Positions 5,889 to 19,125 of a stretch of 64,000 nt of DNA are shown here, in pieces. A program made the position numbers and the translations under genes. Location of the stretch: assembly GCA_937872175.1 (NCBI GenBank), contig CALMPI010000050.1, forward strand, positions 1 to 64,000. The letters run 5' to 3'. This stretch comes from an uncultured Flavobacteriales bacterium (GTDB lineage Bacteria; Bacteroidota; Bacteroidia; Flavobacteriales_F; PHOS-HE28). The notes beneath the pieces are model-generated. The model had not been told where the DNA came from. It saw only the letters and a program-made list of their open reading frames with translations, and ran no database searches. The stretch's first letter is position 1; each line of letters opens with the position of its first letter.

Positions 5889-6980
5889 TTATCCGTTCTT
5901 CTTCGCGAAATGGTCCATCACGTCCACCAGCACCTGCACGCTCTCGATCGGGAGCGCGTTGTACATGCTGGCGCGGTAGCCGCCCACGCTGCGATGCCCG
6001 CGCAGGCCGCTGATGCCCGCCTCCTTCCACAGCGCGTCGAACGCGGCCTCTTGCGACGGGTCGCCCAGCACGAACGTGGCGTTCATCATGCTGCGGTCCT
6101 CCACGGCCGTGGTGCCCTTGAACACCGGGGCCAGACGGTCGATGGCGCCGTACAGCAGGCCGGCCTTGGCGGCGTTGCGGCGCTCGATCCCGGCCACACC
6201 GCCCATCTTCTTCATCCACTCCAGGGTGAGCATGCTCACGTACACGGCGTACACCGGCGGGGTGTTGTACATGCTCTCCTTCGCCCCGTGGTTCTTCAGG
6301 TCGAGCATGGGGCTCAGCTTGCGGCCCGTGTGGCCGAGCTGTCCGGGGTCGAAGAGGTACACCGTGGCACCCGCCGGGCCCATGTTCTTCTGCGCACCGC
6401 CATAGATGAGGGCGAAGTCGGCCACGTTCACCGGCCGGCTGAAGATGTCGCTGCTCATGTCGCAGATCAACGGCACGGGGCTCTTCGGGAACTGCTTGAA
6501 CTGCGTGCCGAAGATGGTGTTGTTGCTGGTGAAGTGGAGGTGGTCCACGTCAGCCGGAACCTCGAAGCCCTTGGGGATGTAGCTGAAGTTCTTGTCCTCG
6601 CTGCTGGCCACCACCACCGTGTCGCCCACCAGCTTGCTCTCCTTGATGGCGCGCGAAGCCCACTCGCCGGTGTTGATGTAGGCCGCCTTGCCGCCCACCT
6701 TCATGTAGTTGAGCGGCACCATGTGGAAGCCAAGGCTGGCACCCCCGCCCAGGAACACGACCTGATAGTGGTCGGGCGCGCCGAGCAACTCCTTCACCAG
6801 CGCCTGTGCCTTGGCCATCACGGCCTCGAAGGGCTTGCTGCGGTGGCTGATCTCCAGGATGCTGAGCCCGCTGCCCTCGAAGTCGAGCACGGCCTGGGCG
6901 GCCTGTTCGAAGACCTCCTGCGGTAGGATGCAGGGGCCTGCGCTGTAGTTGTGGACCTTGGGTGTCACAGTGGTCTTCAT
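5889..6980 (-). CDS. serC: phosphoserine aminotransferase
   Basis: A 363-residue class V PLP aminotransferase that converts 3-phosphohydroxypyruvate and glutamate to phosphoserine. It begins with the family signature VHNYSAGPCILP. The PLP lysine is in IYGGAQKNMGPAG, and the conserved phosphate-binding region GLRGHRSVGGYRASMYNA lies near the C-terminus. Length is normal. First gene of the serine operon; the promoter candidate TAGCTTCG is at 7001-7008, 20 nt upstream. Confidence 0.95.
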   Translation of the reverse strand: MKTTVTPKVHNYSAGPCILPQEVFEQAAQAVLDFEGSGLSILEISHRSKPFEAVMAKAQALVKELLGAPDHYQVVFLGGGASLGFHMVPLNYMKVGGKAAYINTGEWASRAIKESKLVGDTVVVASSEDKNFSYIPKGFEVPADVDHLHFTSNNTIFGTQFKQFPKSPVPLICDMSSDIFSRPVNVADFALIYGGAQKNMGPAGATVYLFDPGQLGHTGRKLSPMLDLKNHGAKESMYNTPPVYAVYVSMLTLEWMKKMGGVAGIERRNAAKAGLLYGAIDRLAPVFKGTTAVEDRSMMNATFVLGDPSQEAAFDALWKEAGISGLRGHRSVGGYRASMYNALPIESVQVLVDVMDHFAKKNG

Positions 6981-13825: not shown

Positions 13826-14186
13826 CGGGGGTGGGGTAGAAGGCGTCCTCCAGGTGTTCGATGCGGGGGGCGGCGCCGTCCATCCACACCGTGATGATGT
13901 CGAAGCGCACCGCGATGTCCTCGCCGAGGGCGTCAAGATAGGCTTCCGCCGCGCGGTACAGCCTGCGCTGCTTCGCCGGTCCCACCGCATCCGCCGGTCC
14001 ATCGTACCGGTCGCTGCGGCGGGTCTTCACCTCCACGATCACCAGCGTGGCACCGGTGCGGGCCACGATATCGACCTCCAGCCGGCCATGCCGCCAGTTG
14101 CGGGCCTCGATGCGGTAGCCGCGCTCCTGCAGCCACTGGCACGCGGCTTGCTCGCCCTCGGCCCCTGTGCGCAGGTGTGTCGCCAT
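13782..14186 (-). CDS. yraN: YraN / UPF0102 family nuclease-fold protein
   Basis: A 134-residue protein of the YraN/UPF0102 family, which has a PD-(D/E)XK-like fold. Seen: GAEGEQAACQWLQERGY, LEVDIVART and VIVEVKTRRS, the last two carrying the acidic residues and Lys of the nuclease core. The family role is not settled. Length is normal. Its 3' end overlaps the pseudouridine synthase gene by 44 nt, indicating an operon. Confidence 0.9.
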   Translation of the reverse strand: MATHLRTGAEGEQAACQWLQERGYRIEARNWRHGRLEVDIVARTGATLVIVEVKTRRSDRYDGPADAVGPAKQRRLYRAAEAYLDALGEDIAVRFDIITVWMDGAAPRIEHLEDAFYPTPDEETDEGPAPWPAR

Positions 14187-15016: not shown

Positions 15017-15056
15017 GACCAGGGTCCGGCGGCGACGAAGCGATCAGACCCTGGTC
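15017..15056. repeat. inverted repeat spanning the ldcA stop codon
   Basis: GACCAGGGTC and GACCCTGGTC, a perfect 10-bp stem with a 20-nt loop. The second arm is the last coding bases of ldcA. It may act as a termination or mRNA-stability hairpin for the minus-strand unit; no U tract follows. Confidence 0.55.
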
Positions 15057-16012
15057 GGAACGTCGTAGGTAAGCGTTGCCGCATCTTCGGTCACAGTGAG
15101 CCGTGCGGGCAGGCCGAAGATCAAGGCCCGGTTGTCGTCGATGTGGCCGGCGGGGAAGCCGAAGCACACGGGGTAGCGGGTGTGGCCCAAGGCATCGACG
15201 ATGATCCGTTCCGCGGCCTTGCCGAAGGGGTCGTCCGGGTTCTTGTCATGCATGTCGCTCATGCCCCCCACGATCAGCCCGATCAGGTCCTTGAACCAGC
15301 CCGCCAGCCGCAGGTTCTGCACCATGCGGTCCATGTGGTACAGCAGCTCGTCGAGGTCCTCGATGAACAGGATCTTGCCGCGCGGGTCGATGTCGTACGG
15401 CGTGCCGCGCAGGGCGTAGAGCAGGGAGAGGTTGCCGCCGACCAACACGCCTTCGCACTGGCCGACGCGCGGAGTGGCGAGTATCGAGTGTCGAGTGGCG
15501 AGTGGGGGTCCGTCAGGACCCGTCACTCGCCACTCGCCACTCGCCACTCCGTACATCTCCCCGAAGAGCGCGGCCCGTAGCGTCTCTCTGCATTCCTCCG
15601 TCTTCCCCCCGATGTGGAACGGCATCTGCGCGTGCAGGCTGGCGATGCCGATGTTGTGCAGCGCGTTGTGCAGCACCGTGATGTCGCTGAAGCCCACGAT
15701 CCACTTGGGATCACGGCGCATGGCGCTCAGGTCGAGGTGGTCGAGCAGGTGCACGGTTCCGTAGCCGCCGCGGGCGCACCAGATGGCGCGGACGGCGTGG
15801 TCATCGAGCGCGGCCTGCAGGTCGGCGGCGCGTTCCTCGGCGGTGCCGGCCTGCTGGAAGTGCTTCCGGCCGATGCCCGCGCCCAGCTTCACCCTCAGGC
15901 CCCAACTCTCGGCCAGCGCGATGCCGTCGCGCAACTCCTCCACGGTGATGGCACGGGCCGTGGGGATGATGGCGATGGTGTCGCCGGGGCGGAGGGCGGG
16001 CGGAACGATCAT
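15044..16012 (-). CDS. ldcA: LD-carboxypeptidase (S66 family) with an in-frame palindromic insertion
   Basis: A 322-residue S66 serine peptidase that removes the terminal D-Ala from peptidoglycan tetrapeptides. The nucleophilic Ser lies in VGFSDITVLH, the Glu in FIEDLDELLYH and the His in PAGHIDDNRA. Between the two halves of the enzyme, about 25 residues (GVASGEWRVT to HSILATPR) are encoded by an 80-nt inverted-repeat element at 15471-15550. Start ATG 16012 overlaps the DUF2442 stop (ATGA), so translation is probably coupled. A diverged copy of the first 29 codons lies at 16590-16678. Confidence 0.92.
   Translation of the reverse strand: MIVPPALRPGDTIAIIPTARAITVEELRDGIALAESWGLRVKLGAGIGRKHFQQAGTAEERAADLQAALDDHAVRAIWCARGGYGTVHLLDHLDLSAMRRDPKWIVGFSDITVLHNALHNIGIASLHAQMPFHIGGKTEECRETLRAALFGEMYGVASGEWRVTGPDGPPLATRHSILATPRVGQCEGVLVGGNLSLLYALRGTPYDIDPRGKILFIEDLDELLYHMDRMVQNLRLAGWFKDLIGLIVGGMSDMHDKNPDDPFGKAAERIIVDALGHTRYPVCFGFPAGHIDDNRALIFGLPARLTVTEDAATLTYDVPTRV
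15471..15550. repeat. REP-like inverted array inside ldcA
   Basis: Heptamers of the GTGGCGA type (also GTATCGA, GTGTCGA) run toward a central GGTCC-GTCA-GGACC hairpin and are mirrored on the other side as CACTCGC repeats. About 80 nt in all, near-palindromic, and the frame is kept through ldcA. Confidence 0.85.
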
Positions 16013-16260
16013 CCAGCCTTGAGCTGCTGCTCGATCGACCCCAGATAGAGCGTATCGGGGCACAGGTCTGCGCCGTTGGCCCAGGTGACGGTGCCCAAGG
16101 AAGCGACGGCCGTGTTGAAAATGGCGGGATCCTGCAGCTCAGCGAAGATACCGGTGCCGAGGTAGGGCGTCATGTCGAACAACCGCACCTGCCCGTCGGT
16201 GAAATGCAGTTCCAGCCGATGCTTGGCGAGGGGTTTCACCTTGTCCACACGCGGGTTCAT
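16009..16260 (-). CDS. DUF2442 family protein
   Basis: An 83-residue protein of the DUF2442 family. Family features are VDKVKPLAKHRLELHFTDGQ, VRLFDMTPYLG, a mid-protein FAELQDPAIFN, and WANGADLCPDTLYLGS. DUF2442 is very often encoded beside DUF4160, as here; the pair has been regarded as a possible toxin-antitoxin-like or regulatory module, without firm function. ATG at 16260 was chosen; a GTG at 16269 that overlaps the DUF4160 stop (GTGA) is the alternative. Its stop overlaps the start of ldcA. Confidence 0.88.
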   Translation of the reverse strand: MNPRVDKVKPLAKHRLELHFTDGQVRLFDMTPYLGTGIFAELQDPAIFNTAVASLGTVTWANGADLCPDTLYLGSIEQQLKAG

Positions 16261-16265
16261 GGAGT

Positions 16266-16535
16266 TCACTTCAAGGGTTCGATCGGGAATACGCGCTGGC
16301 CGGTCACGGCAAGCTGCCAGTTGGCCATCAACTCGTCCTGATGCAGTTCGACCCAGGCCTCGACGAGCTTGATCTTGCCTTTCGGCAGCTCTCCACCGAT
16401 CAACAGCCCGTCCGGCAGACGGAAAACGGCCTCAGCTTCCCCATACCTCACATAGATGTGTGGGAAGTGGTGCTGCTTCGTATCCAGGTAATACATGGCC
16501 ACGATGAGGCCATAGAACATGGAGATGACCGGCAT
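16266..16535 (-). CDS. DUF4160 family protein
   Basis: An 89-residue DUF4160 protein. The family start PVISMFYGLIVAMYYLD is followed by HHFPHIYVRYGEAEAVF, with the usual conserved histidines, and by KLVEAWVELHQDELMANW near the end. It is the upstream partner of DUF2442 (5 nt apart). ATG 16535 lies 5 nt after TATCTTTG, so the pair has its own, probably leaderless, promoter. Function unknown; pairs of this kind are frequent in mobile cassettes and genomic islands. Confidence 0.9.
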   Translation of the reverse strand: MPVISMFYGLIVAMYYLDTKQHHFPHIYVRYGEAEAVFRLPDGLLIGGELPKGKIKLVEAWVELHQDELMANWQLAVTGQRVFPIEPLK

Positions 16536-16540
16536 CCCCA

Positions 16541-16548
16541 CAAAGATA
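16541..16548 (-). promoter_or_regulatory. -7 promoter element for DUF4160-DUF2442-ldcA (TATCTTTG)
   Basis: An exact TAnnTTTG match, 5 nt before the ATG at 16535. Since ldcA is coupled to DUF2442 by an ATGA overlap, this promoter probably drives ldcA as well. Confidence 0.6.
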
Positions 16549-16589: not shown

Positions 16590-16678
16590 CGCAGTTCCTC
16601 CACGGTGATGGCGCGCGCGGTGGGGATGATGGCGATGGTGTCGCCGGACTTCAGCGGAGCGGGAACGAGAAAGGACAT
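16590..16678 (-). pseudogene. remnant of an ldcA 5' end
   Basis: Starting at ATG 16678, this encodes MSFLVPAPLKSGDTIAI and then IPTARAITVEELR. It matches the start of the intact LdcA (PPALRPGDTIAIIPTARA) almost residue for residue for 29 codons, after which homology stops abruptly at 16590. Nucleotides are similar but not identical to 15930-16012. The DUF4160/DUF2442 pair lies exactly between the two copies. Confidence 0.88.
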
Positions 16679-16742
16679 GGGGCGAAGGTCAGCAGTAGCG
16701 GGCACACCCGGTGTTAAGGGCCTGCATATCAGTCAAGACCGC

Positions 16743-16868
16743 CAATAACGGGCCTGCGTTTGCCGCAGGCCGCCTGCCGTGATCTTGTTCCTGGACGAAG
16801 TATTCAACCCTTCAACGGGAGTTGGCAACGGGACGAGGGCAGTTTGCGGCAAGAGCATGTTAGAGGCG
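16743..16868 (-). repeat. candidate attC-like recombination site 2
   Basis: On the minus strand it opens with CGCCTCTAAC 11 nt after the stop of the recombinase-HEPN gene. It contains complementary inner arms TTGCCGCA/TGCGGCAA (16845-16852 and 16760-16767) and ends near GTTATTG. At about 126 bp it is close in length to site 1. Inner arms and right end are less convincing than in site 1. The hairpin GGCCTGCG..CGCAGGCC (16751-16771) lies inside. Confidence 0.45.
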
Positions 16869-16879
16869 CAACAGGCATC

Positions 16880-18184
16880 TTATCGGGCAAATACTAATGA
16901 AAGCAAGTCGGAAAGGAATGAAGCTGCCTTCAAACCATCCGGACGATATTTACTTGGGTGTCCACATGAATTCCTGAGGTCAAGATGATTGGTTAGTATG
17001 TCCTTCTCTGATTTGTCATATATATCAAGATCTTTGGCTATTAAGAGAGTGGTTCTGTCCTTTATATAACTGAAGTCTTCTTCACTGTTTATTTGTCTTG
17101 AATTGGGTTCATGCTTAATCCTTGCATTATTTGTTGCAGATTTTCCTCGTGCTAGACATTTCCGCCGAATATTTAGTATGGCTGCTGTCCACGCAAATAT
17201 TATACCTGCTCGAACAGCTCTATTCTCAATGCATCGTAACGCTTCAATGAGGTAATCTCTCTCATCTTTGTTCTTAATCTTTTCAATAGCTTTAATTAAA
17301 TGTTTTGCGTCTGTGGTCTGGTGTGAATTTTCAAAGGCTGAAAGTTGGTCCAGGGGGCTGTGCTCGACTGATTTCTTTCCAATGGCATCAAGCTTTGAAT
17401 AGATGACCAACGTTGTACCGTGGTCAATGCCTAAATGTTCAAGGATGCGTATGAGCGGCACACCTTGTGCATGCAAGTGCATCGCATATGAGTATTTCAA
17501 TGACCTGAATGTTAACTTTCTATGAATGCCGGCTTTGGATAGTTTGTCCACAAGAATCTTGTTTAACGTAGTCTCTCTATAAGGCTTATTGGGCTGGGAT
17601 CCCTCGAAAACAAACTTAATTGGTTTATACTTCTTTAGGTATTCCTTGAGAAGTGGCTTTGCGCCCTTCGCAAGAGGTGCATTTCGTTTTAGTTTCCCTT
17701 TTGCGTCTCGAACTTTGATTTGGGACCTTTCAAAGTCCAGGTCAGATATTTTCAAGTTCTTCAACTGGCTGACCTCTAATCCTGCCGAGTAGGCCACAGT
17801 CAACATGGCCCTGTGCTTGATATTCTTAGTTGCATCCAGAAGGGCTAAAACTTCTTCCTCCTTTAAGAAATCTCGCTCAACGTTTTGTACTTTGGGCCTG
17901 ACAACAGTGTCAAATGGATAGTTTCTTTTCCAAATACGATTGTATAGAAGAACAAGAGAGTTTAATGCTATGTTGATTGAAGATGGAGAGAACTTGTTCG
18001 CCCTAATGTGATGGGTTACGAATTCATGAATCTCGTCGAATGTCAGTTTTTTAATATCCTTACCAGGATAGTAGTCCATGAGTTTCATTACCCATGAGGT
18101 ATACAAGGGAATCGTTCTGCCGGATAGATCGAAACGATTCATCTCGACTGCTAGAAACTTGCGTGCCGATTCTTTGTCAGTCAT
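16880..18184 (-). CDS. degenerate tyrosine recombinase fused to a C-terminal HEPN domain
   Basis: 434 residues. Residues 1-100 resemble the SAM-like core-binding domain and 105-280 the catalytic fold of XerC/D-type tyrosine recombinases (AYSAGLEVSQLKNLKISDLD; FRSLKYSYAMHLHAQGV; IYSKL). Catalytic positions are largely lost: E137 for the first Arg, R227 for His, K230 for the second Arg and I253 for His/Trp; only Tyr262 and a basic hairpin remain. Residues 295-434 resemble a HEPN domain, with YLIEALRCIENRAVRAGIIF and then the RNase-type Rx4H motif R404-NSCG-H409, followed by PSKYRPDGL. Strand cleavage is unlikely; RNA cleavage or binding is plausible. Codon use and AT content differ from neighbours. 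It is the sole gene of its cassette. Confidence 0.8.
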   Translation of the reverse strand: MTDKESARKFLAVEMNRFDLSGRTIPLYTSWVMKLMDYYPGKDIKKLTFDEIHEFVTHHIRANKFSPSSINIALNSLVLLYNRIWKRNYPFDTVVRPKVQNVERDFLKEEEVLALLDATKNIKHRAMLTVAYSAGLEVSQLKNLKISDLDFERSQIKVRDAKGKLKRNAPLAKGAKPLLKEYLKKYKPIKFVFEGSQPNKPYRETTLNKILVDKLSKAGIHRKLTFRSLKYSYAMHLHAQGVPLIRILEHLGIDHGTTLVIYSKLDAIGKKSVEHSPLDQLSAFENSHQTTDAKHLIKAIEKIKNKDERDYLIEALRCIENRAVRAGIIFAWTAAILNIRRKCLARGKSATNNARIKHEPNSRQINSEEDFSYIKDRTTLLIAKDLDIYDKSEKDILTNHLDLRNSCGHPSKYRPDGLKAASFLSDLLSLVFAR

Positions 18185-18201
18185 GATAATTCATTATTCG
18201 C

Positions 18202-18329
18202 CTCTAACGGTGCGCCTAAAAGTATTGCGTTTTGAAACTACTGAGTTTTCGAGATACGGTAACACAGCAGAACGAAACTTAGACTGACTGACGTACCGTC
18301 CCACGCAATAGTTTTAGGCAGTGTTGGCA
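18202..18329 (-). repeat. candidate attC-like recombination site 1
   Basis: On the minus strand: outer box TGCCAAC, 3-nt spacer, inner arm 18319-18304 (GCCTAAAACTATTGCG), 74-nt centre, inner arm 18229-18214 (CGCAATACTTTTAGGC), 5-nt spacer, outer box GTTAGAG. The inner arms are complementary over 16 bp with one mismatch. The centre holds a further pair, ACGGTA/TACCGT. About 128 bp, palindromic overall, between two single-gene units, like an integron attC. Confidence 0.6.
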
Positions 18330-18347
18330 AACGTGGTTTCTTTCTTT

Positions 18348-18908
18348 TTACCAGTCGCTGTTGTCTTTTTCAAGTCCACCATTGGCTACAGCAGCTTCAA
18401 TGTCGACAAGCATTTGGGTCAGTTTCTCATTTGCGTCTTCATACATGGCTTGAGTTTGCTTGTCAGCTTTGGCCAGTCCTTCTTTTTTAAACCCTTCTTC
18501 TAATGTGGAAGTTCTTGGGAACTGTCCTTGAGTGTTAACCACATTGTAGCTCAACATGAAATTGTCAATTACAACTTTAAAGCGGCCTTCTTTGACAAAC
18601 ACATTGAATTTGAAGTTCAGGAATACGTTAGTGTAGCCCAACCAACCCACTTGGTCATTCAAAACTATGTTTCCCGTAGCATTCAAAGCTTCTTTGTTCT
18701 CATCATCCAGATTAACGGCATTGTCGCCAGACTTGAGGGTACGAACTACCCAAGATTTGGCTCTGTCATATATGTCAGCCTGTGACAGCCCTTCGGCCTG
18801 TATAACCTTCTCGTATTTAAATTTTCCAGTTTCCTCGTCTTTGGGTATGGTTTGTCCAAAAGCTGTTACGGACACGAATAGGGCCAAACTGATTAGTAAT
18901 TGTTTCAT
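18348..18908 (-). CDS. DUF4468 domain exported protein
   Basis: A 186-residue exported protein with signal peptide MKQLLISLALFVSVTAFGQ. The DUF4468 domain (TBP-like fold) covers about residues 25-130: FKYEKVIQAEGLSQADIYDRAKSW is followed by GNIVLNDQVGWL and FKVVIDNFMLSYN. A charged helical tail follows. Family function is unknown; members are common in Bacteroidota. The gene is AT-rich, lies alone between inverted boxes GTTGGCAAAC(A/G)TGG, and seems to be a gene cassette. No TAnnTTTG element is clear upstream. Confidence 0.8.
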   Translation of the reverse strand: MKQLLISLALFVSVTAFGQTIPKDEETGKFKYEKVIQAEGLSQADIYDRAKSWVVRTLKSGDNAVNLDDENKEALNATGNIVLNDQVGWLGYTNVFLNFKFNVFVKEGRFKVVIDNFMLSYNVVNTQGQFPRTSTLEEGFKKEGLAKADKQTQAMYEDANEKLTQMLVDIEAAVANGGLEKDNSDW

Positions 18909-18946: not shown

Positions 18947-18960
18947 CATGTTTGCCAACT
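18947..18960 (-). repeat. outer cassette box upstream of DUF4468 gene
   Basis: CCATGTTTGCCAAC on the plus strand, the inverse complement (one mismatch) of GTTGGCAAACGTGG at 18323-18336. Just beyond it lies a short hairpin ATGCGAA..TTCGCAT. The rest of 18961-19125 shows nothing else I recognise. Confidence 0.6.
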
Positions 18961-19125
18961 GTGGAAATGCGAACCTGTTTCGCATATCACCCCCCAAATG
19001 GGTGGATATACGCAACTGCTCCGCTGGCTTGGTCCGTTCGTCCCCGATGCGGTCATCCCTGCCAAGGTAAGGGTGCTGTTCGGCCTCCGCCAAGCCCGCC
19101 GCCTATGCCACCCGGGGCGCTTCGG

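Follow-up and report, generated by a model that had tools for sequence, protein, structure and literature searches.

We analysed a stretch of 64,000 nucleotides of DNA from an uncultured Flavobacteriales bacterium (contig CALMPI010000050.1 of assembly GCA_937872175.1), here called the window, and studied one gene on its negative strand. The gene runs from an ATG at 18184 to a TAA at 16880, exactly the limits given in the original prediction, and its product, hereafter the fusion, consists of a catalytically dead tyrosine recombinase resembling integron integrases followed by a C-terminal HEPN domain (Table 1). The ORF is located in a patch of 40% GC at 17-19 kb, the rest of the window having a GC content of about 66%. 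Its neighbours are a cassette gene of the DUF4468 family on one side and, past the attC site on the other side, a DhiT/DhiA-like toxin-antitoxin pair. No Rfam family was found between positions 14000 and 20000, and no convincing sigma-70 promoter candidate was present 5' of the fusion gene; one match to the Bacteroidetes-type promoter pattern TTTG/TAnnTTTG (18687-18660) falls within the DUF4468 gene. The DhiT/DhiA-like pair (DUF4160/DUF2442; 16009-16541) is placed between an LD-carboxypeptidase gene (15044-16063) and a 79-bp repeat (16590-16668), which is an 81%-identical copy of the 5' end of the LD-carboxypeptidase gene, as if an insertion or duplication had split the start of that gene. A short inverted repeat (CGCATATCACCC / GGGTGGATATACGC, 18980-19020) lies in the interval from the DUF4468 cassette to metG and could be what is left of another attC.

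Table 1 Features of the fusion gene and the adjoining cassette in the window
Feature	Position	Strand	Evidence
CDS, 434 aa, catalytically dead integron-integrase-like tyrosine recombinase with C-terminal HEPN	16880..18184	-	Five full-length homologues
Core-binding (SAM-like) DNA-binding domain, residues 15-89	17918..18142	-	Pfam PF13495 Phage_int_SAM_4, E 1.6e-12
Recombinase catalytic-fold domain, residues 106-265	17390..17869	-	Pfam PF00589 Phage_integrase, E 2.8e-22
HEPN domain, residues 291-434	16883..17314	-	AlphaFold2, Foldseek, hhalign to PD-T7-3-like HEPN
HEPN motif R404-N-S-C-G-H409	16958..16975	-	13 diverse relatives all keep R and H
attC of the fusion cassette, starting with CGCCTCTAAC (16868-16859)	16740..16868	-	Just after the stop; same attC elsewhere
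Cassette 5' core site GTTAGAGGCG, end of the preceding attC	18199..18208	-	24 nt before the ATG; complementary ends
attC of the upstream DUF4468 cassette, long imperfect hairpin	18199..18332	-	DNA folding z -2.5 (coding strand), -3.75 (other strand)
Neighbouring cassette gene, 186 aa, DUF4468	18348..18908	-	Pfam; paired cassette ends 18950-18959 and 18323-18332

A first contig scan with the full-length fusion protein as query gave no match. The search for the same architecture in other genomes, as suggested by the original prediction, yielded five more full-length homologues, all in Bacteroidota: one in another species of the window's genus (G038, 41% identity), one each in G531 and G852, both genomes from a different genus of that class, one in Cecembia lonarensis (Cytophagales) and one in the Bacteroidetes MAG Glo_2. 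Since five independent full-length homologues exist, the fusion is far from a product of chance. All six ORFs were intact, with 24-69% identity to each other in the recombinase half. In a maximum-likelihood tree the six fusions formed one clade (support 100/98), in which the only other row, L060, is a second copy of the Glo_2 fusion record; several branches of the tree were long, so that long-branch joins are possible, and the order inside the clade was not relied on. The fusion is rare, given that among 395 sampled Bacteroidota genomes a close match was found in only one (G531) besides the window's own, and that 2 of the 400 genomes of the G531 genus carried it.

The best curated models for residues 1-285 were those of the integron-integrase/XerA group, to which this region is homologous over most of its length: NF040815 scored 119.9 (cut-off 220) and TIGR02249 scored 106.3 (cut-off 265). 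The fusion therefore reached neither family cut-off, and it differs further from that group in the replacement of the catalytic R, H, R and H and in the additional HEPN domain. The best solved relatives of the recombinase half were IntI4 and XerA. The set R-K-H-R-H/W-Y of active tyrosine recombinases was absent; alignments placed E137, R227, K230 and I253 at the R, H, R and H positions with Y262 retained, bearing out the replacements that had been read from the window protein beforehand. Across the six fusions the catalytic positions R-H-R-H-Y read [ED]-[RK]-K-[IML]-[YF], with K230 invariant. The position of Y262 was occupied by F in three of the six and is thus not strictly constrained. With its catalytic residues gone in every copy, the fusion was ruled out as an active recombinase. 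When 390 Bacteroidota genomes were searched, scores fell from above 400 bits to 227 bits at the next-best recombinases; all 28 of these that were examined had RHRHY intact (altered pocket, 0/28), as had nearly all integron integrases of the window's genus. The same dead recombinase joined to other effectors was not found among the 390 genomes.

That the same new residues are fixed at these positions, in place of a scattered loss, suggests a selected new pocket, in which, at a guess, E137 might make a salt bridge to R227/K230. In the closest pair of fusions dN was 0.23 in the recombinase half and 0.07 in the HEPN half, i.e., low non-synonymous change in both, with dS saturated or near-saturated. 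The recombinase half was the less conserved of the two in all 15 fusion pairs, as expected of a sensor. These data bear on the reading of the gene as a functionless integrase in decay that ended in a HEPN domain by chance, which we regard as extremely improbable: it would account for the lost catalytic residues, but six intact ORFs of such divergence carry the same substitutions, keep K230 and show little non-synonymous change in either half, and these selected homologues refute it in the main. The net charge of the recombinase half (+13 to +19 in the fusions, +12 in the host genome's own IntI) is compatible with DNA binding. The recombinase half probably derives from an integron integrase or XerA-type enzyme that lost catalysis, and it would have been kept for DNA recognition and oligomerisation. 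Its Foldseek matches included MrpR, the master repressor of SP-beta, which has a tyrosine-recombinase fold and binds DNA without recombination activity (PMC10516654). MrpR (PDB 8A0A) and SroF of phi3T (PDB 9RD5) resemble the fusion in that the fold is kept for DNA binding, presumably so in the fusion; MrpR differs in being a repressor without an effector domain, in its lineage and in which residues are replaced.

The C-terminal ~145 residues of the window protein gave no match in Pfam, NCBIfam or PADLOC, and assignment to a known Pfam HEPN family was rejected as none scored above threshold. Folded alone with AlphaFold2 from an alignment of three rows, the C-terminal region gave a helical bundle with a pLDDT of 88.9 and a pTM of 0.86; the model of the full-length protein was poor (pTM 0.37). 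When the HEPN model was compared with Foldseek, the best 14 ranks were all taken by HEPN and HEPN-toxin structures or by a small archaeal protein with a similar fold, at E-values of only 0.2-1, and the fold assignment therefore rests on the consistency of these matches, the motif and the profile comparison (see below). The motif announced as R404-x4-H409 was present as R404-N405-x3-H409 and read RN[SK]CGH in all six fusions; in 13 relatives of various architectures R, H and the P that follows were invariant, and N was kept in all but one. The model placed R404 where a helix ends and H409 where the next loop begins, as described for HEPN domains (PMC3710099), and both residues are needed by HEPN RNases (PMC3710099). 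Neither failure of the region to fold as HEPN nor lack of conservation of R and H, the two findings that would have spoken against the original prediction, was seen, and its central claim, a dead recombinase fold joined to a HEPN domain with an intact RNase motif, is supported by homology and structure prediction. The HEPN half is a predicted RNase.

Profile comparison with hhalign aligned the fusion HEPN with the PD-T7-3-like HEPN (prob 98.6, E 1.1e-15). A profile of 13 HEPN members, PD-T7-3-like rows included, matched the PDB entries 'Dandelion-hepn' (9wx2, 5.5e-13) and 'Dandelion' (4.8e-12), and the profile of the fusions alone did not reach the Dandelion entries in PDB; the link between the fusion HEPN and Dandelion thus runs via intermediate relatives. 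The PADLOC model of PD-T7-3 matched 8 of the 13 members of the HEPN alignment, and five of the six fusions, when compared with the PADLOC models including PD-T7-3, gave no score. By these profile comparisons the fusion HEPN is a remote homologue of the PD-T7-3 HEPN and of the solved 'Dandelion-hepn'. With PD-T7-3 (PADLOC PDLC04108) and Dandelion (PDB 9wx2, 9wxf) it shares the R-N-x3-H-P core and the E and W positions, whereas the arrangement is different: the PD-T7-3-like proteins compared here have the HEPN at the N-terminus, joined to ~300 residues of another domain, and the fusion has it at the C-terminus, behind the recombinase. PD-T7-3 is an experimentally found anti-phage protein of E. 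coli that guards against T-even phages and T7 (Vassallo et al. 2022, PMC9519451), and it has been listed with HEPN PF18735 (PMC10952713). An origin from a phage or plasmid was rejected: the HEPN half matched no phage, viral contigs scanned with the HEPN alignment and with the recombinase alignment contained no relative, and the plasmid matches of the HEPN half were distant PD-T7-3-like ones in Streptomyces only.

Other relatives of this HEPN were found in different settings. HEPN domains of the same group form the C-terminus of ~255-aa proteins at L042:1483-2841 and L046:1489-2840, where each gene is preceded by a ~195-aa gene without a known family, possibly an undescribed two-gene system. 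A further relative of 275 aa (L045:289-2776) adjoins a homologue of type II restriction enzymes and a 155-aa gene.

The ends of the fusion gene were inspected for cassette sites. An integron cassette is recognised by core sites with complementary ends (GTT... and ...AAC) on either side of the gene and by an attC behind it. The sequence CGCCTCTAAC, located 12-21 nt past the stop codon, is the complement of GTTAGAGGCG, and a 10-bp pair of this kind occurred in none of 2000 shuffles. Matched ends were also present around the fusion genes of G038 (GTTGTCGCAA/TTGCGACAAC, 3/2000 shuffles), Cecembia (GTTACCGCC/GGCGGTAAC, 3/2000 shuffles) and G852 (GTTATGCACA/TGTGCATAAC). Pairs of at least 9 bp were found in only 10 of the 195 ORFs scanned; four were fusions, and the other six were the adjoining DUF4468 gene, the cassette that follows the integrase of the window's genome, the gene next to the Cecembia fusion, the cassette at C20 and two ORFs near the G531 copy. 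The Glo_2 and G531 copies had no clear cassette ends. The guess that the gene is cassette-borne was therefore well placed: at least four of the six copies (window, G038, Cecembia and G852) are integron cassettes. The attC of the fusion gene is found again in the window's genome, at C20, and 3' of the G038 fusion gene; the fusion's own site folded no better than shuffles (z about -1), and its two homologues gave z values of -4.9 and -4.3. The active integrase of the window's genome is on another contig, C18, so the array in the window is a cassette cluster away from its integrase; in G038 the fusion gene lies 5.3 kb downstream of the integrase. As a separate observation, the Glo_2 fusion gene is located between direct repeats of ~130 bp of unknown kind (L050:4660-4790 and 6325-6450).

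The cassette state of four copies, together with a recombinase half closest to integrases that act on attC/attI, would fit a self-controlled addiction cassette, in which the dead recombinase binds the promoter or junction of its own cassette and either represses expression or holds the HEPN toxin in check, the toxin is freed once the cassette is lost, and the main role is stability of the array or cassette. MrpR, which binds phage sites, offers a precedent; HEPN cassettes have been proposed to encode RNases induced by stress, and toxin RNases of other kinds are frequent in integron cassettes (PMC3710099). We nevertheless consider this account unlikely, as no separate antitoxin gene was seen in the fusion cassette, a single-protein device would have to release its toxin in an unusual way, those HEPN relatives whose function has been tested are phage-defence effectors and two of the copies are not clearly cassettes. 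A role in regulating the integron is very unlikely. Here the fusion would compete for attC/attI or form mixed tetramers with the active integrase, and the HEPN would be a dimerisation module or an mRNA-cleaving one that limits shuffling. Such a decoy has no need of an intact RNase motif; although the recombinase half keeps its positive charge and belongs to the same group as the host's active integrase, which in G038 lies 5.3 kb upstream, the two genes are on different contigs in the window's genome, and the G531 and Glo_2 copies are again without clear cassette ends.

Defence genes accompany some of the copies: the G038 array holds a restriction-modification pair (a C5 methylase and an EcoO109I-like nuclease), and the cassette adjoining the Cecembia fusion is PDC-S22 (PADLOC 1.9e-126). 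These neighbours and the remote homology to the PD-T7-3 HEPN strengthen the proposal of a defence function made in the original prediction; the neighbourhood in the window, which is not a classic defence island, and the absence of a PADLOC score for the five fusions compared speak against it. The self-contained control put forward in the original prediction is an inference. The reading we prefer, and hold with moderate confidence, is that of a cassette-borne, one-gene defence protein, probably of the abortive-infection type, in which the dead integrase would serve as DNA-binding control of a HEPN RNase. HEPN RNases act as dimers. An integron cassette would supply a one-protein, defence-type effector with a HEPN of the PD-T7-3/Dandelion group, and at rest the fusion would keep the active sites of its HEPN domains blocked or away from each other. 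The recombinase module might be engaged by DNA that is foreign or being rearranged, by a DNA hairpin or by a phage factor, upon which the HEPN domains would pair and cut cellular or phage RNA, and growth or phage production would stop. A more specific version, in which a domesticated integrase with its fixed acidic/basic pocket senses recombination DNA and fires the HEPN RNase as a guard against incoming integrating elements, seems quite unlikely; the DNA so sensed might, with the same reserve, be attC-like hairpins, phage attachment sites or integrase-DNA complexes.

HEPN cassettes (PMC3710099), PD-T7-3 and dead recombinase regulators are each already known. The integron-cassette HEPN family of Anantharaman et al. 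2013 (PDB 3jrt; PMC3710099) resembles the fusion in that a HEPN is borne on an integron cassette; the table passage on this family lists no recombinase fusion, and the HEPN profiles used here gave no match to 3jrt at E-values up to 10. A literature search, with most subscription journals and preprints outside its reach, found no description of a recombinase-HEPN fusion. We know of no immune nuclease whose sensor is a dead tyrosine recombinase. Automatic annotation would probably label the fusion genes as integrases, because they match recombinase profiles and neither Pfam nor NCBIfam recognises the HEPN half, and effectors so labelled would be hidden among the commonest genes of mobile elements. 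If the proposed function holds, the fusion would represent a new kind of sensor for HEPN immunity and show how cassettes can capture the enzyme of their integron, it would allow a simple one-gene test of RNase gating by a DNA-binding module, and the integrons of Bacteroidota would join the places where defence genes move as cassettes. The integron integrases of the window's genus (L034:3180-4535 and L033:4219-5385) face the same way as their cassettes; they are extended at the N-terminus by about 120-175 aa and seemingly lack the insert of roughly 40 aa of IntI4.
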